Below, piece by piece: positions 3,701-32,400 of a stretch of DNA of 32,679 nt. The notes beneath the pieces are model-generated. The model was not told where the DNA came from and did no database searches. It saw only the letters and a list, made by a program, of their open reading frames with translations. The DNA is from a virus, in IMG/VR virus record IMGVR_UViG_3300046534_000592, positions 1-32,679 of that record; one strand, 5' to 3'. The position numbers and the translations under genes are program-made. The first letter of the stretch is position 1; each line of letters begins with the position of its first letter.

Positions 3701-6700
3701 TAGTTTTTTCTGAATACTAACTGAATTAGGATCTGTTTTGAATTTACCTTTTAAAGGATAACCCATAGTAGTTGCTATATCTAAACCAGTGTTTAGATCT
3801 TGAATTGTGTTTAGATTGATATCAGCGGCAGCTAATCTTAAGAAACCAGCATTTGGCGTTAATATATTGGTTCCATCAGCAAATCTTGCACCTAACTTAG
3901 CTTTATCTAAAAGAACATCTGAAGAATTAGATAGTTGAACTTGAACAAAATTATCTTTAACTCCTTTCATTATTGGCGTAACTGTGTTTGTGGCTAAACC
4001 ATAAATAATAGAAAGACCAACTTTAGAAGCAGGTGGACTATGTTCTTCAATATAATCAAGATATCTTTTAGCTTGTTTTGTACCTTTAGGTGCTTTTACA
4101 AAAACATCAGAAACACCTACAAACGGTGCTGATATTTTTATTAAACTTGTAGTACCTTGATAAGCTTGAGAAATAAATAAAGCAGCGTCATTTAATGGTA
4201 TCGTTTTATTTTGAACTCCTTTATCTAGTATTTTAACAAAATCAGCTAAAGCTTTTTGATTTATTTCTTCTTGAGCTTTATTTGCTTTTTTCTGTTTTCT
4301 AGTTAACTTTGTATTTCTTGGTATTATAACTCTTCCTACGTTTTTAAAGTTATCTATAACTTCAGACGAATACAAACTGTTGTTAGCATCTGCAACCCTC
4401 ATCATTTCTATATAAGCAGGATCAGTTTTGCCGTAGTATAAAGATCCTTTAGCTGCTTGAATTTTAACATTTTGACCTGGGTAAGCAGCTTCGATACTTT
4501 GTAAAGTAGGTAGAGTATAAAGTTTAGGTCTAGTTCCATCTTCACGTTTTTTACCATATCTTTGTTTACCATCTTTATCAAGTGTAGGTGTACCTATTAT
4601 AGTTTTACCATTATCTAAAGTATAATAATAATCTCCATTTTTAGCCTCTGTTCTTTTAGCACCAAAATTACCTAATCCTAATAAGTTTATAGCAGCAGCA
4701 GGTATGTTACCTTTTATTATAGACTGTAACACAGAGTCTTGTCTAGCTTTTCTGTTACTGTCAGTAGCTGTTATGTCACCTTTTAATAAACCTTTATCTT
4801 TTAAATAAATAGCCAAATTATCAATACCGTTTAAGCTTGATACTTCAGTAAGCTGAGTATTTTGTAGAGATGTTATAGTTTTGCTATACACTTTTTTACC
4901 TCTACCAGATCCCATTCGTTGTTTCTGAGTAGCGTCTTTAATATTAGATCTAGCTACAACGTTTGCTAACTGTTGGAATATTATTTTGTTTATTCCTTTT
5001 ATAGTTTGAGCTTGCTTAGATCTATATAGCTTAGCATCGTCAGGAGATTTCATAGCATCAGCAATTTCTTTTATGCGTATGTCTTTTCTTTTTACTAGTT
5101 TTCCATCAGAGTTTGTAGTGTAAAATAATTCTTTAACGTTACCTGGTATACCAGTTGCTTTACCTAAATCATCATAAGCGTCAGGCAACAACTCAATAAC
5201 TTCTTGAGCGTTTTTATTTATAAAAGTTCTTAACGTTCTAAAAGCTTCGTTTTCTTTTTCTTTAATATTTTCAGCAGCACTAACTTCTTGTTGTTTACCA
5301 CCTTTCATGCCCATAGCAAATAATAGCTTTGGGTTCAAACCAAATACTTTACCCCAAGCATCTGCTAATTGTTTTCCTGGCTTTATACTTTTAAAATTAT
5401 CTTTAGAAAAATCTCTACCTTTTTGATCTGATTCAATAGCAGCAATCAAAAGCGGCATATTTTTACCATCACCATCCTCTAAAAATTGTAACTTTCTAGC
5501 GTCTACAAGTTTTTTCTCTGCTTTATCATTTAAGTTACTTTTAGCGTTTAAATCACCTGGCATTTGTAAAGTACTATCGTCAATACTTTTTTCTTGCTTC
5601 TCTTTTTCTCCTTTTTTAAATAATTCTTTATTACTATCTCTTTGACTAAAATTAGTATTTGAAGTTATAAACTCTGCAAAACCTTCCGGGCCAACAATTT
5701 TTCCATCTGCTCTTTTTTTAGCAGGATCAAAGTTTAATAATCTGTCTGCTATGTTTTTTAAATTTAAAGTAACCTGCTCAGGTGATGTAGACTTTGTAAT
5801 TACGTACGCTTTAATTAATGGGTTTAATTCCCCTTTATTAGTGTTTGGATTTATTGAAAAAATCTTGTTAAACACTCTAGGGTTAAAAAAATCTTGCTGT
5901 GTTTTTACATCACTAGGAACTAGCTCCTTTATTTTTTGAAATAAATCTTTAGAATCTTTGCTTACTGTTTTAGAGGTTTTTTTATCTGTACTTTTCAAGC
6001 CATCTCCTTCGTCCATAAGCTTTTGAGCTCTATCAGATATTATTCCGCTTTCAGTGTTTTTATTATAAGTCTTAATAAAGTCATATAAATCTTGACCATC
6101 TTTAAAACCTATATCACTTGGCTTAACGTCTTGACCTGTTGGGTTTTCGTTAGCAGCATTAGAAAATATTTTTGAAAAGAAATCACTTAATTTTTTTATT
6201 AACGTAGGTTTTTCAACAATTGATTCCTGTGTTATTCTGCCTTCGGCTACTAAAGAAGAAAATATAGCTAAGTATTCGTCTGGGTTTCTTTCTAAATATT
6301 CCGGCGGATATAGTCTATTACCAGTTTCCGGGTCAATTTGCTCCATCCTGGAAATTAATAAACTATAGGCATCTGGGTCTTCTTTTTTTAATATTTCTAA
6401 AAACTCATCTTTTAGTTTTTCACCATTAGGTCCTGAAAATTCAGACTTAAGTATTTTATGTAACAATTCATGTCTACCAACGCCAACCGCGCCAGCTTCT
6501 CTCATGTGTTGTTTATTAATAAATATTTCTCCTGTCTTAGCGTCTACATAGGCATCTACGTTAGGATCTGTTTCCCCTGTAGCTTCCATAAATTCAGCGC
6601 TAGTTTCAAATGACTTTACCTTACCTTTGCCGTATTTTTTAGCAAGAGCAACTTCGTTTTCTACTTTTTTATTAATTTTATCTTTGTATTCTTGTAGTTG

Positions 6701-9241: not shown

Positions 9242-9253
9242 TTAATTTAATTT
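9242..9253 (-). promoter_or_regulatory. TTAAA repeat leader before the giant gene
   Basis: The message reads AAATTAAATTAAATG before the start of the 2816-residue gene, and the same bases close the upstream gene. This is the third copy of the A/U-rich leader and it lacks a Shine-Dalgarno sequence. Confidence 0.4.
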
Positions 9254-10343
9254 ATTGGTTACCTTCCATGAACTGTTGAGCTTTGGCTTTTCTAGCTTCT
9301 GCTAAATCAAATACCGCAGCGTCTTCTTCTACGCTAGGCAATTTATTTGTAAGAAATTGTTTTAAATAATTATTAAAAAAGTACTCTTTGTATTTTTGTG
9401 AAAATAACATTTTTTTATTTTGATCAAGAGGTAAATCATCTTTATAAGACCATGACTCCATTCCAGCGTTTGCATTTTGAACCATTTGATCGTCTTCTTC
9501 TTCACTAGTTCCTTTAGATAAAAATACGTTCCAAGCAGCTACAGCTTCTTGTTCTGCTCCAAGTACTCCTGCTATTTCAGCGTTCATAAACGGAGCTACT
9601 TTTTTATCTATCTTGTCTATATCATATCTATATACATTTCTTCCTTTACCATTACCTATGTCAATTATCTCGTAATCAGGTTCACCGTTGAATTTTAATA
9701 TAAATTCTTCTGATATTTTAGCGGCAGAAGATAACTGTTGATTTTCCCCAATAGAATCTGGAGGAAATATACCAGTTTCAACTAACAACCTACCCATATC
9801 TCCAGCTAAATCAGGAGTATCTGCTACTAGAGAAGTATCTGAATCTAGCATTGTTGAAAGAGCAGCGCTATTTATAGATAAAGGCGTATCAAATCCAGGA
9901 CCTACAAAAGTTAGTTGTTGGCTTCCGTTTGCTACTAACTGCAACACTATATCATAACCATCTGTTTTAGAAAAACCAGGTTTTTTAGTTAATATACAAT
10001 TAGCTATCATAAAAGAAAAATCATTATTAACATCGTAATAAGGAGTTTCAGTAACGCTTAGCTCTCCAGTTACATTAGCTAAAAATTCTAAAGATAACTG
10101 CGGAGCGGTTTCTAATTGAACTACTCTAGCGTTTTCAACTGTACAGTATTGATCCATACATTTACCTTGTTGTATGTTCATTTTTAATGTAGCATACTCT
10201 CTACCAGTTTCTTGATAAGCTTTGTTTAAAACACCAAATTCAGTATCAATAGGTTTAGATACATAGTCCATGTTATAAGCGATAGCATCACTTTGTATCA
10301 TTTGCTTTATTAAAAGATTTGTTGTAACGTTTCTATTTTCCAT
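9252..10343 (-). CDS. Conserved virion-module protein of unknown function
   Basis: A 363-residue soluble protein with no signal peptide or membrane span. The N-terminal half is mixed helix and strand with two close cysteines (KCMDQYC, about residues 61-67). The middle is acidic, and the C-terminus is helical and charged, ending in EARKAKAQQFMEGNQ. It lies between the ejection-type protein (1 base away) and the giant polyvalent protein (10 bases), so it most likely belongs to the same set of internal or ejected virion proteins. I do not recognise a domain. An alternative is a chaperone or packaging partner for the giant protein, which its position would also fit. Confidence 0.75.
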   Translation of the reverse strand: MENRNVTTNLLIKQMIQSDAIAYNMDYVSKPIDTEFGVLNKAYQETGREYATLKMNIQQGKCMDQYCTVENARVVQLETAPQLSLEFLANVTGELSVTETPYYDVNNDFSFMIANCILTKKPGFSKTDGYDIVLQLVANGSQQLTFVGPGFDTPLSINSAALSTMLDSDTSLVADTPDLAGDMGRLLVETGIFPPDSIGENQQLSSAAKISEEFILKFNGEPDYEIIDIGNGKGRNVYRYDIDKIDKKVAPFMNAEIAGVLGAEQEAVAAWNVFLSKGTSEEEDDQMVQNANAGMESWSYKDDLPLDQNKKMLFSQKYKEYFFNNYLKQFLTNKLPSVEEDAAVFDLAEARKAKAQQFMEGNQ

Positions 10344-10344
10344 G

Positions 10345-11025
10345 TTAGTTTGCTTTTGCTTTGTTTGCCATGAAAGATCCAGCAGCTGAAGCTACTCCAC
10401 CTATCGCTCCAGTTAATGCAGCTGTTTGATCTCTTGACGCTTGAGCTTTTATACCTTGTTGGTTATCTATTTGTCCCTGTAATCTATTTAATTGCATCAT
10501 TTCTCTTCCTTCTTGTTGTCCATAAACAAATGATTTCCCCGCGGCGTCTAAGCTTTGCATTCTTTGTTCTTCACTTATTTTAGCTTGCTGTAGTCTTTGT
10601 TCTCCAGCTGCTCTTTTATCTTCATTAGATTTTTCTTGTGATTCTATATCAGCAGCAACACCTTTTTTGCTAGCTAAAGCAGCTTGAGCTAAAGCAGTTG
10701 CACCACCAGCACCACCACCTGTAGCTCTAATAGTGTCTAGTGTGTTCGCTAGACTTATGTCAGCTTCTTCTATTTGCATTTCAGCAGCTTGAGTAGCTAC
10801 AGATAAATTAGCCATAGGATTGCTCATCATACTACTTAAGTTAGTGGAATCTTCATAAGGATTTATTATTTCTTGTCTGTTAGCCTCTAAACTCTCCATC
10901 TTAGCGTTCATTTTCTTTAGCTTTTTAGCGGCTTTTCTTTTTGCTTTTCTAGCTTTACCTCCACCGATAATGCCGCCAATGATACTTGCTCCGGCGCTAA
11001 CAGCTCCTGCGATTATAAAGGTCAT
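10345..11025 (-). CDS. Probable internal virion / DNA ejection protein
   Basis: A 226-residue protein of the composition seen in ejected virion proteins of short-tailed phages (T7 gp14-like). The N-terminus has a Gly/Ala-rich hydrophobic segment (IIAGAVSAGASIIGGIIGGG, residues 4-23), followed by a strongly basic helix (KARKAKRKAAKKLKKM). A long Ala/Gln/Glu-rich helical region follows with a Gly-rich hinge (ATGGGAGGATALAQAAL), and a second Gly/Ala-rich hydrophobic patch (TGAIGGVASAAGSFM) near the C-terminus. Such proteins are carried in the head or neck and inserted into the host envelope to make a path for the DNA. The ATG overlaps the stop of the cupin gene (ATGA), so translation is probably coupled. 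The family call rests on composition and position, not on a conserved catalytic motif. Confidence 0.65.
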   Translation of the reverse strand: MTFIIAGAVSAGASIIGGIIGGGKARKAKRKAAKKLKKMNAKMESLEANRQEIINPYEDSTNLSSMMSNPMANLSVATQAAEMQIEEADISLANTLDTIRATGGGAGGATALAQAALASKKGVAADIESQEKSNEDKRAAGEQRLQQAKISEEQRMQSLDAAGKSFVYGQQEGREMMQLNRLQGQIDNQQGIKAQASRDQTAALTGAIGGVASAAGSFMANKAKAN

Positions 11026-16828: not shown

Positions 16829-18058
16829 TTATGATTTTATCCATTTAGATTTACCTCTCATCACTTGAGTTATTTCATCAAGTTTGATATTAGATAGTCT
16901 TATTTTAGCATTTCTAAGTTTTGCACTACGGTCTCTTTTAAAACGTTGAACAACGCCCTCTGGAGTTCCAGCTCTTGTAGATAGTATAGAATACAGCAAA
17001 TGAGAATACATTGCATCTTCGGCCATCTTAGGAACTCTACTGTCTAAGTCGTAAGCAAGTCCATCAGATATGTATTCTAATACAATTAATCTATCTGCTA
17101 AGTTACTAGAAAAAGCTATTCTACCTTCTCTTTCGTTCATATTAAACCAACCATTAACTTGAGAAACAGCAGGATCTAAACCGTATCTTCTTCCAAAAGC
17201 ACCAAGTCCGTATCCATATCCATCTTGCATAAAATCAAAAAACGTGTTTAAATTATCATTATTAAAGCCACCTGTTAAAAGTCTATCGTTTGCGTTTTTC
17301 CATCTTTCCGAAGTTATAGAAGTTCCTTCTAGATTATCCCCAAAATTATCTTGTGTTGGTTGCCCAGCGTTATCTTGTAAAGGCATTTCATAAGGACTTA
17401 TAGTAAGGTTGTTTGCTGGGTATATAATACGCTTAACACCAAGAGTATCTATAGAAGATATTCTAACGTAATTAACGTAATCTTGTGGCAAGATAACCGC
17501 AAGGCTAGGCGGTACAGTTAGCTCTTGTGATTTAACACTTTTCAAAGTGTCATAACTAAATTCTTGCATTCCACGTTTAACGTGAAAAACAACATCCGAT
17601 TTTTTACATGTTTGAATTAATTTACCGTCACCTACGTAACCAACCATGAAATTGTCTATAATATCACCAATAGTAATATAAGCATAACCACCGTAATTTT
17701 CTTCAACAGCTTCGCCTGTAGCATTTCTAGCTCCATAAGCACCACCGTCTAAGGCTTTCATTTGAACAACTACGTAAGTTCCAAGAGCAATAGCCGCTGT
17801 GAAAGTTACTATATTGTTTACTATCGTATAAGCTAATATATATTCTGTGTATGTTATGCCGTCAGCGCTAGTGTATAGTTTAAAATTATTTAAAGCATAA
17901 TTTGCCTGCGTTGGATCAGAGCTGCCAAATATTAAATCTGTATTAAAGCTTGTTGTAAACTCTTGATTCTGCAGTGCGGTTAGTGCTCTAAAGCCTTGCG
18001 CGCCTGCGTAATATTGTTTGTTAGTCTCGGTTATTAAACCTCCGTTTGGAATTGGCAT
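16829..18058 (-). CDS. Tail tubular / ring connector protein
   Basis: A 409-residue protein of the neck. The central and C-terminal parts hold the features of adaptor or tail-tubular proteins of short-tailed phages (T7 gp11 and crAss-like ring proteins): ITIGDIIDNFMVGYVGDGK (about 131-149), a helix with FHVKRGMQEFSYDTL (about 158-172), then PPSLAVILPQDYVNYVRIS (about 182-200), a pattern of an N-terminal helix bundle packed on a beta-sandwich. The C-terminus is helical and basic (RFKRDRSAKLRNAKIRLS). The N-terminal 110 residues look like an added beta domain (DLIFGSSDPTQANYALNNF). It sits between another ring protein and the large beta-rich tail protein, the expected order from portal outward. 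I am confident of the connector role and less so of which ring it forms. Confidence 0.75.
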   Translation of the reverse strand: MPIPNGGLITETNKQYYAGAQGFRALTALQNQEFTTSFNTDLIFGSSDPTQANYALNNFKLYTSADGITYTEYILAYTIVNNIVTFTAAIALGTYVVVQMKALDGGAYGARNATGEAVEENYGGYAYITIGDIIDNFMVGYVGDGKLIQTCKKSDVVFHVKRGMQEFSYDTLKSVKSQELTVPPSLAVILPQDYVNYVRISSIDTLGVKRIIYPANNLTISPYEMPLQDNAGQPTQDNFGDNLEGTSITSERWKNANDRLLTGGFNNDNLNTFFDFMQDGYGYGLGAFGRRYGLDPAVSQVNGWFNMNEREGRIAFSSNLADRLIVLEYISDGLAYDLDSRVPKMAEDAMYSHLLYSILSTRAGTPEGVVQRFKRDRSAKLRNAKIRLSNIKLDEITQVMRGKSKWIKS

Positions 18059-18064
18059 ATTTTA

Positions 18065-18826
18065 TTAACTTTTTTCATTAATTTCTACTTGCTGTGCTTC
18101 AGCTTGTGCAGATTGAACGATTTCTGGATCTCTTATTATTATACCACAATACTTGAGCACGTTTGTTATAATGTTTGTTTGCTCTGATACGTCTAGTTCA
18201 AAATTAGTAGAAGTAGTTGGGTTGAAAGTGTATTGACCAAAACTACCAGTTGTGAAACCCCAAACAGGGTTAACGGGTCTAAATAAGCAGTTTACACTTA
18301 CTGAGCTAGGTACAGGTGATATATTCAACACAAGTCTAGCTGGCGTTGCTGGAGTAGTTACTATTGTAGCGTGTGTAGTATAACCAATAGGATATTGGTT
18401 TGTTGGAGAAGTTAGGTTGGATCTTGTAATTGTAGAAAAATCGCTTCTACTTGTTAGTTGAGTTATAGAATTGTAAGTAGGATTTCCTGTGTATGTAGAT
18501 ATTATTTCACCTATTTTATAAACCGTACGTAGACCATTATAATAATATGATTGCGAAGGTACATCTAAAGTGAATGCAGTGTCTTGTTCAAAAGGATAAA
18601 GTTTATAAGCATTGCCTTTAAACATGTTAAAAAACTCTGTATCGTTTTGTTGATTGTTTTGATTGAATCTATTAAGTTGATTACCATCTGGAAAATATGA
18701 AGCAAAGATTTCTTCTTGTACTTGAACAGCTAGGCTGTTAAACTCTATTGGAGTAACGTATCCTCTTTGTTCTTTGTTTAATATGTACAAGACTGTTGTA
18801 TATACTGTGTTTATATTTACCGCCAT
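18065..18826 (-). CDS. Head-tail ring protein
   Basis: A 253-residue protein whose N-terminus (NINTVYTTVLYILNKEQRGY, residues 4-23) followed by TPIEFNSLAVQVQEEIF matches a neck/ring family I associate with marine and crAss-like phages. A helical N-terminal third is followed by a beta-rich middle (TLDVPSQSYYYN, RLVLNISPVPSSVSVNCLFR) and a helical C-terminus ending AEAQQVEINEKS. Stacked rings of such proteins join the portal to the tail hub. The gene lies 6 bases before the tail-tubular gene, as expected for partners made together. Its own leader contains a strong stem-loop (18842-18880) that separates it from the previous gene. Confidence 0.7.
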   Translation of the reverse strand: MAVNINTVYTTVLYILNKEQRGYVTPIEFNSLAVQVQEEIFASYFPDGNQLNRFNQNNQQNDTEFFNMFKGNAYKLYPFEQDTAFTLDVPSQSYYYNGLRTVYKIGEIISTYTGNPTYNSITQLTSRSDFSTITRSNLTSPTNQYPIGYTTHATIVTTPATPARLVLNISPVPSSVSVNCLFRPVNPVWGFTTGSFGQYTFNPTTSTNFELDVSEQTNIITNVLKYCGIIIRDPEIVQSAQAEAQQVEINEKS

Positions 18827-18881: not shown

Positions 18882-18890
18882 ACTTGTTTT
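18882..18890 (-). promoter_or_regulatory. AAAACAAGT intergenic motif, copy 2
   Basis: The motif directly follows (and overlaps by one base) the stop of the 272-residue gene and precedes the stem-loop at 18842-18880. The minus strand reads AAAACAAGTGATACTATTAT. It lies 55 bases before the next start codon, nearly the same spacing as copy 3 (56 bases). Confidence 0.3.
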
Positions 18891-19708
18891 TATAGTTTTT
18901 TATCTATAGACTTATAGATTTCTACACCTTCATCAGTCTTTAAGAAAGCTGCAAATGCAGAATAAGGGTTTTCATCAAACGGAACGTTCATTAACTTTCT
19001 GTTATTTGTTCCCCAATGAATTGTTCTTTGATCAGCAGACAACGATATGATTCCAGCTTCTGCAGCTCTAATCGCAAAGTTTCTAAGTTGAACGTTTTCA
19101 TCATTAACTAAACTCATAAATAATGCAGGATCTTTCTTAGCAAATAATAGTAAATCTCTTTTAAGTTCTTTTGAACTCATTTCATTTACTTTTGATCCTA
19201 CTTCCACTCTTAATATAGCTTCAGCGTGATCTATTTCTAAGTCTCTTGCTGCATTTAAAGCATCGATTTGCAAGTCTAATGTTTCAAGCTCATCTTCTGC
19301 AACTGCAACTGCACTAAATTCATGATATAGTCTTCCTTTTAAAGGATGATATAAAGATAATAATTTTTGTAAGTTTTGTTTTGTTTTAGGAACCATTAGT
19401 GTGCCATTATGAAACGTTATATGTCCCATTGTTGCTTCACCTTTTTGTTCGTCTACAAACGGCGAATCCATATTGGTCGCGTATCTAATTTCTCTTTGAG
19501 TTCCAGTTTTTTCATCAAAAAACAATAAAGAATGTTTTCTTGTATGCTTTCCTGGAATAGTTAGAGTTAAAGGAGATTTAGCTCCATCTAAAAAATATGT
19601 TCTATCTTTCATTTCCCAACTTGATTTAGTTGGTTTTGTTGGCGCTACTTGTGTAGCTACCGCCTGAGGTGCAACCTCAATGTTTTCTGCTTGAGCTTTT
19701 TTAGCCAT
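18890..19708 (-). CDS. Capsid-linked structural protein of unknown fold
   Basis: A 272-residue protein directly after the major capsid gene. The first 30 residues are Ala/Pro/Lys-rich and probably flexible. A beta-rich middle follows (KDRTYFLDGAKSPLTLTIPG, about 34-53; LLFFDEKTGTQREIRYATN), then FVDEQKGEATMGHITFHNGT and a helical block. The C-terminal third is helical (SKELKRDLLLFAKKDPALFM) and ends with a small compact unit (RTIHWGTNNRKLM). I recall homologs in marine phages beside the capsid gene but no proven function. Candidate roles are a head-completion, capsid-bound or portal-ring protein. It is flanked by two stem-loops (19744-19770 before, 18842-18880 after), so its dose may be set separately from capsid and rings. 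Confidence 0.7.
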   Translation of the reverse strand: MAKKAQAENIEVAPQAVATQVAPTKPTKSSWEMKDRTYFLDGAKSPLTLTIPGKHTRKHSLLFFDEKTGTQREIRYATNMDSPFVDEQKGEATMGHITFHNGTLMVPKTKQNLQKLLSLYHPLKGRLYHEFSAVAVAEDELETLDLQIDALNAARDLEIDHAEAILRVEVGSKVNEMSSKELKRDLLLFAKKDPALFMSLVNDENVQLRNFAIRAAEAGIISLSADQRTIHWGTNNRKLMNVPFDENPYSAFAAFLKTDEGVEIYKSIDKKL

Positions 19709-19792: not shown

Positions 19793-21277
19793 TTAGATTC
19801 CTTTGAATAATACAAAGTTGTTAGCAGCTTGAGTTACTAAACATCTTTCAGATAGGAAGTTTACTTCCATAGCATCAAGAGTTGAGTTCATTGCTCCACC
19901 AGCAGAACCAGTCAACCAAGATTTCATTCTTCTATCATCAGCTTGAGACGCTCTATATCTTACGTGTAAGAAAGGTCTTCTGATGTTAGTTCCTAAAATT
20001 TGATCGTAAACTGTAGAAGTTCCAGCAGGAACTAAAACACCTTCAACAGAATTGATACCAACAATACCACCTCTTGTAGAAGCGTCATTTAAGTATTTCC
20101 AATCTGTTTTGTAGAAATCATAAGAACCTCTTCTGAAACCACTAAAACCTAAGTTTAAAGCCATTTCTTCAGAATTTTCGAATAAACCGAAAGCAGTTCC
20201 ACCAGCAAATCCACCAGAGATAGAAGCTAACATATCGTCAAAATCAAGAGATGTTTGTCTCTGTAAGAATAACATGTTTTCTTCAATTGCTCCTTGAGTA
20301 TCAAGATTTTTAAGTATTGCATCAAATTCAGTAAGTCCAGCAGCAGCAGTAAATCCTACTTCTACATTTCCTCTTGAAGTTATAGCAGCAAATAAACCTT
20401 CAGTACCTGGTAAAACTAAGTTACCAACACCTACACCAGCAGCTATCTGATTGTATTCACCTTCTACTAAAGCCATTTCTAAGTAATCTTCGAAACGAAG
20501 TCTAGTTTCAGATTCAGCTTTTAGATACCATAAGAATCCAGAAGCACCATCTTCAGTTGCAACTTCAACCCATCCAATTTGAGCCATATCAGAACCAGAG
20601 ATAGTATATTGATCTCTAATGATGATTGGTGAATTAGAATATTGAGTTAACTGAGGTGTAATGGAATTTCTTGCAGCAGTTCCTGCAGCAACAGTTCCAG
20701 CAGGCGAAAGATTAGTACCTTTAGCATAAGCAGAACCATATACAAACATTTTAACGTTTGAAGCTCCAGCAGCTACAACAGCAGGTACAAGAGAAGTACC
20801 AGCAGCAGCAACAAGACCAGCTCCAGCGATGAAAGGAACAACAGTAATAGTTCCTCCAGCACCTGGCGCAGAAACAGTTACGATACATTTTCTTTCAGCA
20901 CCAGTGTTTCCGTTCATTAATACTACTGTATCATTTACGGATATAACATTAGTAACGTTTGCTTGTACAGTAATAATGTTAGCACCAGCAACATTTGCAG
21001 CAACACCAACAGAGGCATAACTAACGTGTAATCTATTTTGTTCAGACCAAATTACTTGATCAGAAGTCATTGGCATTTCAGCGCCAACCATTTTTAAAAA
21101 TCCAGATAACGTTCTGTTTCCATAACGCTCTACTTCTTGTTCGTAGATTTCTGGTAAGTACTGTTGAGCAAAATCATTTGCTCCCGCAGCAGCGGTGTTA
21201 AATTGTAGGTAGTTACTAGGCAGAAGTTGTTGAGCCTGCGAAGGTATTAAACTACCAAATTGAGGACTTAAAGCCAT
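19793..21277 (-). CDS. Major capsid protein
   Basis: A 494-residue protein in the expected slot after portal and scaffold. It has the layout of an HK97-fold capsid protein: a helical N-terminal arm with YLPEIYEQEVERYGNRTLSG (about 40-59), an Ala/Gly/Val-rich beta insertion (about 90-200), a spine-helix region (ETRLRFEDYLEMALVEGEYN, about 256-275) and a C-terminal A-domain-like section (LHVRYRASQADDRRMKSWLT near 436-455). The absence of a protease and of an obvious cut site suggests the scaffold is a separate protein rather than a cleaved delta domain. The family assignment is from position, length and pattern; it resembles capsid proteins of marine Bacteroidota phages. It is probably the most highly expressed gene here, consistent with a stem-loop right after it. 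Confidence 0.85.
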   Translation of the reverse strand: MALSPQFGSLIPSQAQQLLPSNYLQFNTAAAGANDFAQQYLPEIYEQEVERYGNRTLSGFLKMVGAEMPMTSDQVIWSEQNRLHVSYASVGVAANVAGANIITVQANVTNVISVNDTVVLMNGNTGAERKCIVTVSAPGAGGTITVVPFIAGAGLVAAAGTSLVPAVVAAGASNVKMFVYGSAYAKGTNLSPAGTVAAGTAARNSITPQLTQYSNSPIIIRDQYTISGSDMAQIGWVEVATEDGASGFLWYLKAESETRLRFEDYLEMALVEGEYNQIAAGVGVGNLVLPGTEGLFAAITSRGNVEVGFTAAAGLTEFDAILKNLDTQGAIEENMLFLQRQTSLDFDDMLASISGGFAGGTAFGLFENSEEMALNLGFSGFRRGSYDFYKTDWKYLNDASTRGGIVGINSVEGVLVPAGTSTVYDQILGTNIRRPFLHVRYRASQADDRRMKSWLTGSAGGAMNSTLDAMEVNFLSERCLVTQAANNFVLFKGI

Positions 21278-21293: not shown

Positions 21294-22511
21294 TTAGTTA
21301 AATTTTCTTGTTTTAATTTTTAAATTTTTTGAGTCAAATCCACTAATTGCTTTTACTTTAAAACCACCAACACTGATATCGCCTGAACTTCCTGTTCTAG
21401 CTTTAGTATCGGTTAAGTTTTTAGATTTATTAATGACGTCTTTAACGGCATCAGCTTTTCCTTGTTCGTAAAAGTGACTAGCAATTTTATCAACATTTTC
21501 AGCAGCGTACATGGCTTTGTGATAACCAGAAGTATCCACTACGTCTCCATCTTCGTTTAAGAACTTCTTAACTAAGTTATTGAGATTCGATTGATTTTCT
21601 GCTACTTTTTCACGATTTTGAATATTGTACTTAAAACTCTTTTCTCCTACTGAGATATCAAAACCTTTGAAATCCTCGTTAAATAGTTCTTGAGTGTTAT
21701 GTTTAAACTTTTCGTGTTGTTCAGTAGCCACATCTTGTTGCTTGTTGTAGCGATTAAAAAAGTCTGTAGCTTTTTGTTGGTCTTGAGTTACTCCGGGTCT
21801 CAACTTGATTTCCTCGTAGTATTTTACCTTAGTTTCCTCTAAAAAGTTTTTAGCTTTTGCAATCTCTTCTTTTTTAGCGAGTTTCTTTTTTCGGACTTCA
21901 CGCTCTTCGTCCATGTCTTCATCATATTGGAAATTATCCTCCATAACGAATCCAATCTCTTCCTCGTTTAAATGAGGTTTTGCTTTTTTATAATACTCTT
22001 TTAATAAAGTATCATCATCAATGCTTGAATAATCAGCATTGAGTCTTGTATAATCTTCTATAGTTCCACCAGTTTCTTCCATAAAAGTAACTAACTTTTC
22101 AATGTTCTCTGGTAATTGTTTGCCTAATACTTTTTCGTCTCGTAAAGCTTCTTTTACTTCTTTAGTAGCTTGCTTTACTTCTTGTTCTGTAACTTCTGTG
22201 ACTGCAGAAAACCCTTCAGTAGTCTCGTTGGACTCTTGTATAGATTCTCCCACCTTTGCGCTATCTCCGGATGGTTTTTCCACAGGTACTTCCTTTGTTT
22301 CTCCGATTTGAATGGCATCTTCTTTTTTTAATACATCGTTAGGTATAGTAACTTTTGTTACTTCATCTGGTAATTCAACTAAAGGTTCTTTTAAGTTAAC
22401 CTTTATAATCTCTTGTTCTGGCTTACCTAATTTTTTAGGTGTTGTTTTTTTAGACTTTATTTTAAAGTCTCCTTCCTGTTTAACAGGTTCATTTGTTTTT
22501 GTTTCTGACAT
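21294..22511 (-). CDS. Scaffold-like capsid assembly protein
   Basis: A 405-residue, very charged (Glu/Lys-rich) protein without hydrophobic core in its first 130 residues, followed by long predicted coiled coils (EVREKK-like stretches: EEREVRKKKLAKKEEIAKAK near 203-222; FLEETKVKYYEEIKLR). The C-terminal 40 residues become basic and Gly-rich (GGFKVKAISGFDSKNLKIKT), as in scaffolds that contact the capsid shell through a basic end. Its place between portal and capsid gene and 16 bases before the latter is the classic scaffold slot. No protease motif is visible. Sequence alone cannot prove scaffolding, but composition and place agree. Confidence 0.75.
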   Translation of the reverse strand: MSETKTNEPVKQEGDFKIKSKKTTPKKLGKPEQEIIKVNLKEPLVELPDEVTKVTIPNDVLKKEDAIQIGETKEVPVEKPSGDSAKVGESIQESNETTEGFSAVTEVTEQEVKQATKEVKEALRDEKVLGKQLPENIEKLVTFMEETGGTIEDYTRLNADYSSIDDDTLLKEYYKKAKPHLNEEEIGFVMEDNFQYDEDMDEEREVRKKKLAKKEEIAKAKNFLEETKVKYYEEIKLRPGVTQDQQKATDFFNRYNKQQDVATEQHEKFKHNTQELFNEDFKGFDISVGEKSFKYNIQNREKVAENQSNLNNLVKKFLNEDGDVVDTSGYHKAMYAAENVDKIASHFYEQGKADAVKDVINKSKNLTDTKARTGSSGDISVGGFKVKAISGFDSKNLKIKTRKFN

Positions 22512-24928: not shown

Positions 24929-27139
24929 TTAACTTATAATTTTTGATGTAAATCCTTTGTTATCGTATTTTTTAATACCTAGTTCAACTGCTTTGATTTG
25001 AATCTTGGCTGATGGTGCGTATCTATGTTTGTTACAAGCCATTAAAGCTAATCCCGAACTAATAGAAGCATCGTGAGAAGTTCTGTTATTTATATTAAAT
25101 TGTGCCCAATCTTCTAATGTTCTTTGGAAATACATATCTCCGTAGCCTGTTTCTTTTATTCCAACAAAATGCTCTATATAAGATTCTATTGCAGAAGCGT
25201 GTGCTTGTTTAATATCTTCACTAGAGTTTGGCATTCCGCCTATTTCTCTTTCTGTTACCGATAGTTTATTATGTTTTTTATCTGGTCGATTCATAGAATA
25301 TGATCTATAACCTCTTCTTTTAAAATGATATAATAATCTAGGTTTATTGTTCTCTGCTAGTATTGGCATTCCATAAAATATACAAGCCATTAATACATCT
25401 TCAAAAAATATCTCAGCTGTTTGTGGACGAGCTATGTATTCTAAAAAGAAATGATTAGGTGGAACATCTTCCATGCTAAACTTAGTTAAACCGCTTAAAG
25501 CTCCATTAGAACCTCTTCCGTCTACTGTTCCTGATATATCATATGGATCACATCCAAAAGCACCACAGTGCTCGTTACCTGGATATACTCTACCATTTTT
25601 CTTTATAGTTCTATTCTGTAATTCAACTGGTGGAACCCATGATATTAAAAATCTACCACTTTTGTTTGGTACAAACATAACCTTAGTATCTTTAATTCCG
25701 TTTTCCCATTGAAAACTACCTTTTGTAATTGATAGTGAATTTTTTAAATCCTCATTAAAATCGATCTGTTCGTATATCTTTGTAAGATTAAATAAAGACT
25801 CTTTACTTTCATCTCTAAACGCGTGTTTTGTTGTGCGTGGAAACTGTCTATAAAATTCATTTAAACCATCTTGATCTTCTTTTAAACCAGCTACTTCATT
25901 ATCCCAGTATTCAACAACCCCGATTTTGATTGGAGTTCCATGAGGTCCAAACACAGGTTTCTGTGGGGTTTCGAAGACAGGGTAGCCATAAGAATCAATG
26001 TATCCCTCGTAGTTCCATTCCATAGGAATGAACAAAGAATAGAGTCCTGAACGTGTTTGTCCATTTGCATTTCTTTTATTAACATCTGAGTCATCGTATA
26101 ATTTTTTAAAGTTTCTACCACCTTTATCTAAAGCGTTTGATGTTGATCCCATCATACACTTTCCAATAATTCTTGATCCTAATCTAAGGGTTGTTTTTGT
26201 AACACGCCAGTTGTTTAATATATTATTAGGTCTTTCCCATTTACCTGATTCATCATGAACTAAAAGCTTTAGTTTTTCTCCATCATAAGCATTGTCTCCA
26301 GTGTTTTTCCAATCTATAGTTGTATCTAGCCCAGCAAGATCTTCTGGTTTATCTGTAGAAACTATAGATCTTCTTGTAAATTTAGAAGCTGGTACTCTAT
26401 AAGCTAACTCTGTTTTAGGACGATCCATACCGTCTTGTATTGGTTTAAAGAAAAAAGGATAGTTAACCGAAATAGGAACTACCTTGTCTGTAAACATTTT
26501 CTTTGCATCAGATCCAGATTTAGATAAAATACCAAAACGTGCATCAGTTGATATCGTGGCCATGTTAACACATTCACCAGACGCCATAAATGAAAATCCA
26601 GAACGTCTGTTTTTTAGATAAGACATTCCATAGCATCTATAATCTGCTCTACAAGCTTCCCAAAATATAAAGAACAATCTATTTGATTCTCTAAAGTCTG
26701 GTTGACCTACATCAATTTTAGACCATTGTAAGTACATGTAATGAGTGCCAGTAAGATAAGTAGGAATATTTTTATTGATATACCAGAAACCTTCTTCACG
26801 CCTTTTGAATTCATTATCAATGTAGTCGTAATGTTTTTCTTTGAATTCTTCTGGATATTCTCTCCAGTCGAATACTGTTTTTATTCTTTTTAATTCTTTA
26901 GGATAATGAAATAAGGTCCATCTATTTTCTTTGAACTCATGGACTTCTTCAGCTTTAGGTAAAGCTATTATTAAGTTTTGTATTTCGTATATTTCTCCAA
27001 TTTCACCAGTCTTAGATATAACAACCATGTCATGATCTTCGTTGTATCCATACTCCCATTTTTTATACCTATTCATTCGTTTAAGAACTTTAGGTTTAAC
27101 GTAATCGGGTAATACTTTATATAGTGTTTGCTCGTACAT
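24929..27139 (-). CDS. terL: Terminase large subunit
   Basis: A 736-residue packaging motor. The ATPase P-loop is the deviant form K176-N-R-R-S-G-F-S183, as in many terminases with an arginine-rich Walker A. Walker B is LKLLVHDE with D296 and E297. The C-terminal RNase H-like nuclease shows its first acidic residue in GCDPYD (D531 and D534) and a late one in TSHDAS (D690). About 130 extra residues precede the ATPase domain, making it longer than usual. The ATG overlaps the stop of the upstream small gene (TAATG), and a real Shine-Dalgarno sequence AAGGGAGG (27148-27155) lies 8 bases before it, rare in this window. It translocates DNA into the prohead and cuts it. Confidence 0.9.
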   Translation of the reverse strand: MYEQTLYKVLPDYVKPKVLKRMNRYKKWEYGYNEDHDMVVISKTGEIGEIYEIQNLIIALPKAEEVHEFKENRWTLFHYPKELKRIKTVFDWREYPEEFKEKHYDYIDNEFKRREEGFWYINKNIPTYLTGTHYMYLQWSKIDVGQPDFRESNRLFFIFWEACRADYRCYGMSYLKNRRSGFSFMASGECVNMATISTDARFGILSKSGSDAKKMFTDKVVPISVNYPFFFKPIQDGMDRPKTELAYRVPASKFTRRSIVSTDKPEDLAGLDTTIDWKNTGDNAYDGEKLKLLVHDESGKWERPNNILNNWRVTKTTLRLGSRIIGKCMMGSTSNALDKGGRNFKKLYDDSDVNKRNANGQTRSGLYSLFIPMEWNYEGYIDSYGYPVFETPQKPVFGPHGTPIKIGVVEYWDNEVAGLKEDQDGLNEFYRQFPRTTKHAFRDESKESLFNLTKIYEQIDFNEDLKNSLSITKGSFQWENGIKDTKVMFVPNKSGRFLISWVPPVELQNRTIKKNGRVYPGNEHCGAFGCDPYDISGTVDGRGSNGALSGLTKFSMEDVPPNHFFLEYIARPQTAEIFFEDVLMACIFYGMPILAENNKPRLLYHFKRRGYRSYSMNRPDKKHNKLSVTEREIGGMPNSSEDIKQAHASAIESYIEHFVGIKETGYGDMYFQRTLEDWAQFNINNRTSHDASISSGLALMACNKHRYAPSAKIQIKAVELGIKKYDNKGFTSKIIS

Positions 27140-29346: not shown

Positions 29347-29799
29347 TTATTTATTACTTATTGTTTTATATTTTTCAACTCCACGTGATCCAAAATAGGC
29401 TACATAAACTGTGGTTACTAAAGTTTTTAGTAAACCTATCCATTCTTGTTCCACTGTAAAAGATATTTCATGATGACTATCAACCCATATAAAAGCTATT
29501 GTCATTACAGATAAAAATATCAAACATAGTGGACGCGTGTTTTTCGAAAGCCATGAGTCGCTTTTCATATCGCTCTCCCAGCGTTTTGTTATTTCTTTCA
29601 TTTCTGTCATGTCTTGTTCTAGTAACATGAGTGCTTTTTCTTTGTCTTCCACAGGAAGAGCAGTATCTTTTTTAATTAAATTCTTTACTAAACTAAATAA
29701 ACCAGCATCAGGCAATACGTCACCCGCTACATCTAATATACTTGGAGCAACTTTACTTAAAAATGCTCCTACTTTAGTTTTGTTAAATTTCTTTTTCAT
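29347..29799 (-). CDS. Holin of the 3TM gene-transfer-agent-like type
   Basis: A 150-residue protein with an amphipathic N-terminal part and helices around 20-65. It then shows the signature SDSWLSKNTRPL (residues 80-91), known from the GTA-holin/3TM holin family, followed by two membrane spans at about 91-107 (LCLIFLSVMTIAFIWVD) and 119-137 (EWIGLLKTLVTTVYVAYFG). The C-terminus is short and basic. Holins form lesions in the inner membrane to time lysis. I chose the ATG at 29799 because it overlaps the upstream stop as ATGA; a start at 29826 would overlap by 31 bases and only add basic residues. The neighbouring gene is a small zincin. No separate endolysin is visible here. Confidence 0.75.
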   Translation of the reverse strand: MKKKFNKTKVGAFLSKVAPSILDVAGDVLPDAGLFSLVKNLIKKDTALPVEDKEKALMLLEQDMTEMKEITKRWESDMKSDSWLSKNTRPLCLIFLSVMTIAFIWVDSHHEISFTVEQEWIGLLKTLVTTVYVAYFGSRGVEKYKTISNK

Positions 29800-30104
29800 C
29801 CTTTTTCGTAAGCTTCTTTTTCCCAAGGCAAATCTTTTGCGCCTTCTTCCATGTCAGCTCTTGAGTATTTTTTTCCTTTCCAATAAACGTTTTCGTTGTC
29901 GTAATCTAAATCACCACGTTTCATTTGGTCTAAGTGTATTTTTTCATGAGAGACTACATCGTCTACTTCACTTGGATCCAAATCTTTGTTTATAATTATA
30001 GAACCATTATTATTAGCTTTACCCATAACGCCATCTTCCATGTCAACTCTATATATAGGAGTATTATCTACTATGTAAGGTGGATTTTTTAGTGTAAATG
30101 CCAT
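29796..30104 (-). CDS. Small zinc metallopeptidase-like protein (HEKIH)
   Basis: A 102-residue protein with a zincin motif H53-E54-K-I-H57 in SHEKIHLDQ. The possible third zinc ligand is E95 or E97 in LPWEKEAY, near the C-terminus, as in small gluzincins with W-E-x-E-A. Between them lies GDLDYDNENVYWKGKKYSR, conserved in my memory of such phage proteins. The N-terminal half has several beta strands (PIYRVDMEDGVMGKAN, SIIINKDLDP). It overlaps the holin by the ATGA sequence, so the two are translated together. Targets may be a host envelope protein, a phage protein, or none if the fold is only structural. No signal peptide is seen. Confidence 0.7.
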   Translation of the reverse strand: MAFTLKNPPYIVDNTPIYRVDMEDGVMGKANNNGSIIINKDLDPSEVDDVVSHEKIHLDQMKRGDLDYDNENVYWKGKKYSRADMEEGAKDLPWEKEAYEKG

Positions 30105-30262: not shown

Positions 30263-30652
30263 CTATGCTGTGAAAGCAGCGCTAGTGTAAGAAACTGATA
30301 TTTGTGGAGTTGTTACTGCTATACGTCCAACATTTCCTCCAGTATTAGCAGCATTAGCTCCTTGAGCTAAAGGAATTTGAGCTACGTTTACTGGTGAACC
30401 TACTGTAGATACTACTCCTCCTGGATTAGAAGTCATTGCAGATTGAATAGCGTTTAACACGTCATTAGCAACTAAAGGTGCTAAATGTGTTACTGTCCAT
30501 TTTTTTGTAGCTGTTACAATGTTATCAAAAAAGATATCAGTTGTAGTTGTGCTTGCTGTTGCAATTCTTGTAATTTGGTCGATGTTAATCAACAATTCTG
30601 AACCTGTAGTCGCTCCTGGAGTGCTAAGGTTAAATTTAATGTACTTTGCCAT
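30263..30652 (-). CDS. Small conserved virion-like protein
   Basis: A 129-residue protein starting MAKYIKFNLSTPGATTGSEL, a beginning shared with small proteins of marine phages. It is rich in Thr, Ala, Val and Asn, with a beta pattern (INIDQITRIATASTTTTDIF), a short helix (ANDVLNAIQSAM) and a long Ala/Val/Thr tail. The composition resembles virion decoration or minor head proteins. The leader in front of its ATG contains a hexanucleotide tandem repeat (30659-30691). Function is not known to me. Confidence 0.65.
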   Translation of the reverse strand: MAKYIKFNLSTPGATTGSELLINIDQITRIATASTTTTDIFFDNIVTATKKWTVTHLAPLVANDVLNAIQSAMTSNPGGVVSTVGSPVNVAQIPLAQGANAANTGGNVGRIAVTTPQISVSYTSAAFTA

Positions 30653-30658
30653 TTTTTT

Positions 30659-30691
30659 GTTAGTGTTAGTGTTAGTGTTAGTGTTAGTGTT
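30659..30691. repeat. Hexanucleotide tandem repeat (GTTAGT x 5.5)
   Basis: Five perfect GTTAGT units plus a half unit lie just upstream of the 129-residue gene start (30652), so the message has ACTAAC repeated between the SPL-family gene and this ATG. The repeat leaves six bases (AAAAAA) before the ATG. Exact short repeats in a leader can change length by slippage. Confidence 0.85.
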
Positions 30692-30721
30692 TTGGCTGAG
30701 ATTTATTACAGTTCTCTTCTG

Positions 30722-30946
30722 TTATTTTCTTACTGCTCCTGTTTTATAATGAGAATCCATAAATCCTTCGTCTTCAAATTTTTTACCATCATGTTCCATT
30801 AATGGTGATCCTTTAGATCCACCCATATGCTTTAATATCATTGGTCTCCCGCTGCTAGCATCTCTAGCTATTGGGTTGTCATTCATTAAATCAGATTTTT
30901 CTTGTTTTGCGTAACCTTTATTTAGGTTGTTTAGTGGTGAACTCAT
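30722..30946 (-). CDS. Small SPL-motif protein A
   Basis: A 74-residue protein that begins M-S-S-P-L-N and has a second S-P-L at 47-49 (GGSKGSPLMEHDGKKFEDEG). It is rich in Lys, Asp, Gly and Met, with no hydrophobic core, so it is likely disordered or folds only on binding. An M-N-D stretch (DLMNDNPIARDASSG) resembles NIMNDKKRGPNPEGG in the neighbouring protein. It is one of at least four small neighbours with the same motif, so it is probably part of a paralog family that diverged after duplication. Family and function are unknown to me. Confidence 0.65.
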   Translation of the reverse strand: MSSPLNNLNKGYAKQEKSDLMNDNPIARDASSGRPMILKHMGGSKGSPLMEHDGKKFEDEGFMDSHYKTGAVRK

Positions 30947-30971
30947 TGTTGTATTTTAATTAGTTAATGTT

Positions 30972-31397
30972 TTATTTTTCTTTTATTATGTTAGAATCTC
31001 CTCCAGGTTTACCTCCATGATGCGAAGCTCCTTTTTGATGTCTTGCCCAACGTTCAGCATCAGAAACACCACCCTCTGGATTTGGTCCTCTTTTTTTGTC
31101 GTTCATTATGTTACTGTGGTTATCTTTACCGCCTTCTTGGTTTAAAGGTGAAACCATTTTAGCAACAGATCCATGATGTTTTTCATCGTATTTTAAATCT
31201 CCAGCTAATTTTGAAATATGCTTTTCATCAGCTGTCATAGACGCATCACTTCCACCATGCTTACTATCATAGTCAATATCTTCTTTAATATATGTCATGT
31301 GAGCTTCATCGTCTCTTTTTGTTGCTCCCATGTTACTGTTTGTAACTTTTGAATGTCTTGCATTGCCTGTGTAATGACCGTAGTGTCCTTTTTCCAT
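30972..31397 (-). CDS. Small His/Gly-rich SPL-motif protein B with internal repeat
   Basis: A 141-residue, very polar protein. Two internal units align: EDIDYDSKHGGSDASM (39-54) and GDLKYDEKHHGSVAKM (66-81). The S-P-L motif is at 83-85 (MVSPLNQEGGKDNHSN). The C-terminus carries ERWARHQKGASHHGGKP (115-131), which closely resembles EYWRVHQKTSHHKKP in protein D. Eighteen or so histidines could bind metal, but they may simply reflect a sticky, flexible chain. No known domain. The neighbours on both sides share its motifs. Confidence 0.65.
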   Translation of the reverse strand: MEKGHYGHYTGNARHSKVTNSNMGATKRDDEAHMTYIKEDIDYDSKHGGSDASMTADEKHISKLAGDLKYDEKHHGSVAKMVSPLNQEGGKDNHSNIMNDKKRGPNPEGGVSDAERWARHQKGASHHGGKPGGDSNIIKEK

Positions 31398-31409
31398 TTT
31401 AATTATGTT

Positions 31410-31967
31410 TTATGATCTTGGTGGCCTTGGCCATTTTGCGTTTAATGCCGCTACTCCTTCTTTTGTATTTCCAAATGCAAGTTTATCAGCTTCGTAAGCT
31501 TTCAAGTCAGCCGTTATTTTATTTGTAACAACGAGTTTTCTATCTTCAAGTTCTTTTGTTTTTTTATGGAATTTTATAGCTTTTTTTGAACCTCCTGTAA
31601 CTTTACCAAAACTAGGATTAGCTGTAGTGCCGTCTTGTAAAAATTCGTTTTCATCAAATGTAACTTTTTCAATTGCATCTTTTCTATCATCTCCTCTTAA
31701 AATCTTACCATCAGGTCCAAAACTAATAAGTTTCTTTCTAACGTTTCTACTTCCTTCTCTATCTCCTCTTTTTGCAATTCTATTAGTGAGTTTTGTTTCT
31801 GTATCTTCATCAGTCCAACTTGACATAACTTGATCCGCAGCTGCTTGAATTTTTCCTTGCATTTCGCGAAACGCTGGTTGATCAGATAGATAAACTTCAC
31901 CTCTACCACCGTCACCATAGCTATTTAATGGTGATTTCATTTGGAATGGGCTATTAGTTTTTTTCAT
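31410..31967 (-). CDS. SPL-motif protein C
   Basis: A 185-residue protein starting MKKTNSPFQMKSPLNSYGDG, with S-P-F at 6-8 and S-P-L at 12-14. I chose the ATG at 31967: an upstream ATG at 32141 would overlap the previous gene by 161 bases and add a Gln-rich region that reads as a shadow of that gene. The remainder is charged and helical (QGKIQAAADQVMSSWTDEDT, KELEDRKLVVTNKITADLKA) and ends in KWPRPPRS. It is larger than its paralog-like neighbours and may be the founder of the group or a fusion of the motif to a different protein. Function unknown. Confidence 0.65.
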   Translation of the reverse strand: MKKTNSPFQMKSPLNSYGDGGRGEVYLSDQPAFREMQGKIQAAADQVMSSWTDEDTETKLTNRIAKRGDREGSRNVRKKLISFGPDGKILRGDDRKDAIEKVTFDENEFLQDGTTANPSFGKVTGGSKKAIKFHKKTKELEDRKLVVTNKITADLKAYEADKLAFGNTKEGVAALNAKWPRPPRS

Positions 31968-31980
31968 GAATCTATTTATT

Positions 31981-32400
31981 TTATTGTTCTTTTTTTGATT
32001 TTGGTTTTTTATGGTGTGAGGTTTTTTGGTGCACTCTCCAATACTCACTTGCTGACGCAGTCCCTGCGGTACCTGAATTATCAGTTCCTGCTTGCATATG
32101 CGGGGGGTGACCGCTTCTTCCTGCTGATGCAGTTGTATCAAGTGGTGAATTCATGTTAATCATAGAATCATCAGCTTCGTAATTCATATTTGCGGGTGGC
32201 GGTTGATCCCCTGGTGTAGCATGCTCAGCATTTTTCAATTCTCCTTTAGCTTTTAATTTCATTACTTTATCGTTTTCGTAATTAAAATCTCCATCTTCGC
32301 CATCTTTTTCAGATAGTTTTTTTGCTCTTTGTAGAAATTTATCTCCGTGATTATGTAATGGTGATTTAGCGCTGAACGCTTTTTGGAATGGTGAACTCAT
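31981..32400 (-). CDS. SPL-motif protein D
   Basis: A 139-residue protein starting M-S-S-P-F with S-P-L at 13-15 (AKSPLHNHGDKF) and again at 85-87 (NMNSPLDTTASAGRS). Charged middle with GDFNYEND and a Pro-rich stretch (ATPGDQPPPANMNYE). The C-terminus EYWRVHQKTSHHKKPKSK (119-136) matches the end of protein B. It shares the G-D-x-x-Y-D/E element with protein B and with the zincin gene product (GDLDYDNE). Nothing in it suggests an enzyme. Likely flexible, perhaps bound to a virion component through the S-P-L/S-P-F motif; this is inference. Confidence 0.65.
   Translation of the reverse strand: MSSPFQKAFSAKSPLHNHGDKFLQRAKKLSEKDGEDGDFNYENDKVMKLKAKGELKNAEHATPGDQPPPANMNYEADDSMINMNSPLDTTASAGRSGHPPHMQAGTDNSGTAGTASASEYWRVHQKTSHHKKPKSKKEQ

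Follow-up and report, generated by a model that had tools for sequence, protein, structure and literature searches.

A short S-P-L/F tag on otherwise unrelated small proteins of uncultured marine phages, a candidate virion-sorting signal

The stretch of DNA analysed here (the window, 32,679 bases) is an IMG/VR virus record and a fragment of a genome. It belongs with flavobacterial phages by its terminase (phrog_6681), its portal (phrog_6547) and a capsid-type protein (phrog_13704); the hosts of the matching cultured phages are Flavobacterium, Cellulophaga, Tenacibaculum and Maribacter, and a terminase scan finds a related terminase encoded in at least 600 uncultured stretches. The gene for the terminase large subunit (24929..27139, minus strand; phrog_6681) marks the phage group in which the tag described below occurs. 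Candidates for the scaffold (21294-22511) and the major capsid protein (19793-21277) and two ejection-type proteins (9252-11025) are encoded elsewhere in the window. Upstream of it in the reading direction lies an array of four small open reading frames (ORFs), all on the minus strand and all present where an initial annotation had placed them: (i) a 74-residue tagged protein beginning MSSPLNNLNKGYAKQEKSDLMNDNPIARDAS (30722..30946), (ii) a 141-residue protein of the GHYGxYTGNARH family (30972..31397), which has no N-terminal tag and carries an internal AKMVSPLN and a C-terminal WARHQKGASHH, (iii) a 185-residue tagged protein beginning MKKTNSPFQMKSPLNSYGDGGRGEVYLSD (31410..31967), in whose family SPL is followed by a Tyr- and Gly-rich stretch, and (iv) a 139-residue tagged protein beginning MSSPFQKAFSAKSPLHNHGD (31981..32400), with an N-terminal double tag, an internal MNSPL and a C-terminal WRVHQK..SHH module. 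A homologue of the last protein in L002 bears the same tag. None of the four proteins matches a Pfam or PHROGs family, and their sequences read as different, the tag and one C-terminal module being all that they visibly have in common; nothing suggests that the bodies are paralogs, the term used for them at first. The array is part of a bigger modular gene set that reaches past the window's end. A short run of about five GTTAGT repeats is seen at 30660-30692, between genes 30263-30652 and 30722-30946.

The four array proteins contain eight copies of SP[LF] against 0.18 expected, a number never reached in 20,000 shuffles; nor did any of the 20,000 shuffles of the four place a copy among the first 20 residues of three proteins, as is observed. 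All copies lie on the minus strand. The 74-residue protein has an SPL tag at residues 3-5 (30932..30940) and an internal SPL at residues 47-49 (30800..30808; KGSPLMEHDG), and the 185-residue protein has SPF at residues 6-8 (31944..31952) and SPL at residues 12-14 (31926..31934). In the 139-residue protein SPF at residues 3-5 (32386..32394) is followed by SPL at residues 13-15 (32356..32364), the second half of a double tag SPFQKxFSxKSPL, and by an internal SPL at residues 85-87 (32140..32148; INMNSPL), with Met at position -2 as in fused gene starts. The motif had been described as often lying near the start, which holds for these three proteins and fails for the product of 30972-31397, where it occurs at residues 83-85 only (31143..31151; KMVSPLN). 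Outside the array, among the window's selected ORFs, SP[LF] is present in 18890-19708 only. The KSPLTL and DSPF of this structural protein were considered as part of the system and rejected, as relatives read K-T-P-L-T, K-E-P-L-T or Q-P-L-T; the match is a chance variant of K-x-P-L-T.

Two further motifs had been reported for the array. The W-x2-H-Q-K..SHH element is indeed found in the products of the 30972 and 31981 genes; in a whole-body motif enrichment the exact W-x2-HQK pattern is confined, among array proteins, to these two copies, variants are present in relatives, and in the close relative G001 SEYWRKHQQLSHHKK is carried by the homologue of the 30722 gene instead. The element is thus a mobile module. 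The second motif, GDxxY[DE], is present in the same two array proteins and in a neighbouring gene product, as had been noted, but the latter copy is explained by its own family. This neighbour is a small zincin-like metallopeptidase (29796..30104, minus strand; HEKIH) with the N-terminus MAFTLKNPPY, which lacks SP[LF]. Its GDxxYD follows just after the HExxH and looks like part of the conserved core of the zincin family. That family is found in tagless genomes too; a relative in L070 starts MAFKMNSPF, and one of 49 distinct matches is tagged.

Enrichment of the tag in related phages was measured on a set assembled independently of the motif. From 81 loci selected by their terminase, a simple script called 617 short same-strand ORFs upstream of the terminase, and these form 108 homology clusters. 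SP[LF] lies within the first 30 residues in 18.3 weighted clusters of the 108, compared with 0.9 under shuffling (highest of 200 shuffles, 4.6), the clusters being BLAST-based, so that remote homologues may count separately. None of 111 ORFs downstream of the terminase has the motif in its first 30 residues, and SPL and SPF rank first and second among all tripeptides in N-termini upstream of the terminase. Such strong enrichment removes the objection that the motif might be no commoner than expected in relatives. Because the bodies have different Pfam or PHROG assignments, the sharing is not a matter of hidden homology alone. The proposal that a short motif rather than a common fold is kept is supported; the observation is confirmed and is bigger than first seen, the shared tag is strongly supported as real, and the sharing of a common tag fits the data.

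The tag is conserved at the level of the protein. Its core consists of S-P and a following hydrophobic residue and often occurs twice, as in SPFQKxFSxKSPL; the same core sits on quite different leaders: MSSPFQK, MAYTQNSPF, NPLSRxSSPL and MKSPLNIKE. In 15 tagged proteins with an FPEIK domain, S and P are invariant and the leader is otherwise variable in both length and sequence; in one family the third tag residue itself drifts (MKSPLNIKE, MKSPVNIKE, MKTPLNIKN, MSSPAKIKE). The 41 tags in terminase-chosen loci use 27 different 9-base spellings, with serines of both the TCN and AGY types, and TCA and CCA codons are somewhat over-used; loci from the MSSPFQK pattern search, which demanded TCN at the second serine, were kept out of this count. 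Selection therefore acts on the protein and not on a DNA site, and a DNA-level motif such as a promoter or recombination site is rejected on the same 27 spellings. The spellings also weigh on a functionless origin, in which gene starts were copied repeatedly within the array by recombination and so gave unrelated bodies one leader. Near-identical MSSPFQKxFSxKSPL on neighbouring genes and the evident shuffling and fusion of modules are what such copying would leave behind; yet S-P-hydrophobic alone is kept where the rest of the leader varies, many different codon spellings occur, and several quite different leaders share the core, which makes this origin very improbable.

The tagged bodies span the DUF6321, DUF5872 and phrog_7595 families, the FPEIK domain, an M78-like zincin and others. 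Gathering scores are reached for DUF6321 (PF19846; cut-off 28.5 bits) by L160:2196-2465 at 45.9 bits and L110:2963-3235 at 34.6 bits, and for DUF5872 (PF19197; cut-off 27.5) by L156:3393-3617 at 47.8 bits; none of these is a window gene. Tagged and untagged forms of one body exist, the untagged ones in related genomes that have no tags. The FPEIK domain is tagged in 15 of 15 distinct proteins of tagged genomes, with an untagged form (MANQFPEIK) in L069, whose 5 kb of upstream sequence shows no tagged gene; the CAKSEGG domain is tagged in five cases and untagged in L078, and phrog_7595 is tagged in two and untagged in L059, L063 and L053. Pooled over the three families, the tag is associated with tagged genomes (Fisher p = 0.0003, relatedness ignored). 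Basicity does not clearly separate tagged from small untagged proteins in either direction (p = 0.05). Several tagged proteins (in L138, L147 and L098, and G001:41460-42305) contain a second short motif, G-G-[IFT]-D-Y-E, often as EGQGGIDYE and sometimes repeated.

The modules also fuse. In G001 a single 281-residue protein unites a tagged protein of the 31981 type with the 31410 protein, the latter downstream, and has the sequence INMSSPLNSY where the two meet. Met stands two residues before the internal SP[LF] in 22 of 73 distinct copies against 3% expected, several of these copies coming from one family (AKMVSPL); the internal "MxSPL" would seem to represent gene starts that were fused in. 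An SP motif at the join of modules known in both fused and split forms is also what a processing site would produce, one at which a protease of the phage, for example the small zincin that the array itself encodes, cuts to free modules from fused precursors. Old start codons of fused genes are the better explanation of Met at -2, however, little would be gained by cleaving a small protein at residues 2-5, and zincins of this family occur in tagless genomes too, so that cleavage at the motif is to be given little credence.

Tagged genes occupy late positions and a patchy range of genomes. A scan for MSSPFQKxF returned 67 stretches in 65 contigs, and 57 of the 65 records encode the window's terminase family (L011 being there by terminase selection); of the other eight contigs, several tagged genes are seen in the fragment L124 and one doubtful ORF in L106, while the remaining six show no tagged ORF. 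In four whole contigs (G001, G002, G006 and G008) the tagged genes map to two late places, the interval from groEL/groES to the terminase and the end of the late region that is concerned with lysis. ISPF matches in one early gene of G006 and in G003 look like chance. Within the clade the tag is present in 17 of 27 genomes, a pattern for which the well-supported branches of a quick tree force at least six changes; being patchy, the tag is therefore dispensable. Its presence in all phages of the family is rejected, as the checked genes of cultured Cellulophaga, elemo and Tenacibaculum phages and of some uncultured relatives are without it. A 22-residue tag query found no match in cultured phages, and a longer tag pattern, run against GTDB genomes to name the host, found none there. 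Stop codons or a frame change interrupt the terminase gene in two contigs (G007:C1:7228-9437 and G004:C1:37626-39836), through insertion, decay or assembly error.

The gene position leaves room for a partner outside the virion, such as the phage GroEL/GroES, the lysis machinery or a host protein, with the tagged proteins acting late in the infected cell. In whole genomes the array is close to the phage groES/groEL and ends near lysis-type genes, and a second tagged set adjoins an endolysin-type region. The tagless G003, however, has groEL/groES in a similar place, and the FPEIK domain is found elsewhere in virion cargo proteins; such a partner is rather unlikely.

Structural models and gene neighbourhoods bear on a virion role. 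In AF2 models the tagged FPEIK protein has a low-confidence tag leader, the rest being a three-helix domain, and the 31410..31967 protein has pLDDT 45-49 over the tag stretch and up to 88 in its C-terminal helices. The description of the array proteins as polar and probably disordered therefore holds for the polar bodies and for the tag stretch, but some bodies are not disordered. A PDB fold search with the FPEIK model gave no match. By sequence, the FPEIK domain aligns, with 12 invariant columns, to part of crAss phage proteins that are encoded right after the muzzle/stabilization gene, where cargo protein C1 is located, and BFVD labels several of these 'Cargo protein 1 compact domain-containing'. 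Virions of phiCrAss001 were found to contain C1 (gp45), which was observed at the portal as well as in the tail (PMC10172136). Stand-alone FPEIK copies are encoded between portal and major capsid protein in the crAss-like cr50_1 (L163:5971-6189) and cr10_1 (L187:5974-6201); these small proteins, which have the domain in common with C1 too, are labelled 'transcriptional regulator', a doubtful label.

Other bodies have comparable relatives. Those of a tagged DUF5872-related domain have their genes beside the ones for scaffold and capsid in P-SCSP2, and adjacent to the terminase gene in cyanophage Bellamy. Domains of the KRKFKVWPSAYAS type, related to DUF5872, occur as a tagged stand-alone protein at L096:3898-4053 and in the large protein beside the Bellamy terminase (cyanophage example L189:3939-5795), with matches in 120 phage records, nearly all of Synechococcus phages. 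In the cultured relative phi40:1, for which virion data exist, gp069 and gp080 are small basic virion proteins by MS/MS and are encoded upstream of the terminase; the proteins checked in this phage, the MS-detected ones included, have no tag. By eye, the tagless genome G003 encodes a gp080 look-alike with a KDYDH motif. A small K/R-rich protein with KDYDH or QDYDH, again by eye, recurs in the late region: L085:7488-7793 (gp080), G003 17848-18081 and G008 39814-40002. A virion role is thus favoured by hints that come from the bodies and not from the tag. A search for a receptor of the tag by gene presence, comparing four tagged genomes with one tagless whole contig, gave no convincing candidate.

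A place on the virion could also be an external one, with the tag pinning proteins to the head or tail exterior as a decoration or fibre-anchoring peptide. A disordered leader on unrelated bodies would suit this, and fast turnover of bodies suits exposed proteins too. Pfam and PHROGs nevertheless show no likeness of the bodies to known domains of the decoration, Ig-like or fibre kinds, and the FPEIK link points to cargo; exterior pinning is decidedly unlikely.

The tag is probably a sorting or docking signal. That it sorts or docks late, otherwise unrelated small proteins to the virion is the preferred reading, held tentatively at not far below an even chance. A short, disordered N-terminal S-P-hydrophobic tag would mark these proteins for recognition, most likely by a scaffold or structural protein in the head or tail as it is being assembled, and they would travel inside or on the particle and perhaps enter the next host from it. 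Selection would retain the tag as bodies were swapped quickly, in units separate or fused, each beginning with its own SP motif. Enrichment, modularity, conservation as protein and late gene position are observed facts, whereas recognition by a virion partner, packaging and delivery are inferred. Weighing against the reading are the patchy and dispensable tag, the tagless phi40:1 proteins, the receptor comparison with no convincing candidate, the lack of a clear difference in basicity, and, in contrast with the T4 signal, several internal SP copies and no head protease seen. Somewhat more tentative is the fuller proposal that the S-P-L/F leader is an undescribed virion-sorting code, differing from the T4 signal, which loads fast-changing effector or DNA-condensing modules in widespread uncultured marine phages. 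No earlier description of the tag was found in the literature searched, most subscription papers lying outside that search.

The closest known parallel is the set of T4 internal proteins, in which a short conserved signal is borne by otherwise diverse small proteins that change fast between relatives (PMC3012670). The capsid targeting sequence of IPI, IPII, IPIII and Alt resembles the tag of three of the four window genes in being a conserved short N-terminal signal on unrelated small proteins. The window tag differs in its S-P-L/F core, often doubled and with several copies internal, and the system differs in that no head protease or cleavage is seen (none of the ten structural-region proteins of the window that were scanned matches a protease family) and in the unrelated host and phage groups. 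The tag may therefore work like the T4 signal, a likeness in logic between uncompared sequences, and cannot be called a member of that system. Encapsulin cargo-loading peptides are likewise short motifs on cargo for loading into an HK97-fold shell (PMC10960027, PMC8346489); encapsulins, however, are compartments of the host and take few types of cargo, unlike the many candidate cargo types in one phage here. Some homologues of crAss C1 (gp45 of phiCrAss001) include a domain of the FPEIK type, which in the tagged phages forms a separate SP-tagged protein. C1 is nonetheless large, portal-bound and encoded after the muzzle gene, whereas the tagged FPEIK proteins have 65-72 residues and share the small domain alone; C1 homologues show no consistent SP tag. 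Polyvalent proteins of phages and conjugative elements, predicted to be virion-carried and delivered, combine many small domains, zincins included (PMC5512222), and FPEIK is present in a crAss-like protein named PolyVal ADP-ribosyltransferase. Their domains are joined in one long chain, in contrast with the mostly separate genes sharing a tag here.

If the tag does load virions, it offers a way to recognise from sequence what a common, uncultured marine phage group carries as cargo, and a second independent example of the T4 internal-protein logic, one small address on exchangeable payloads. It would then point to candidate counter-defence or host-control proteins missed by sequence annotation, and the tag alone could find new injected phage proteins. 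The window also encodes a 2816-residue protein (791-9241, minus strand) with no Pfam or PHROG match at E 0.01. By eye, this protein combines a zincin HELLH motif with a HAD-like FDFDDTLA...FADDA, a combination that an injected multi-domain protein might show.
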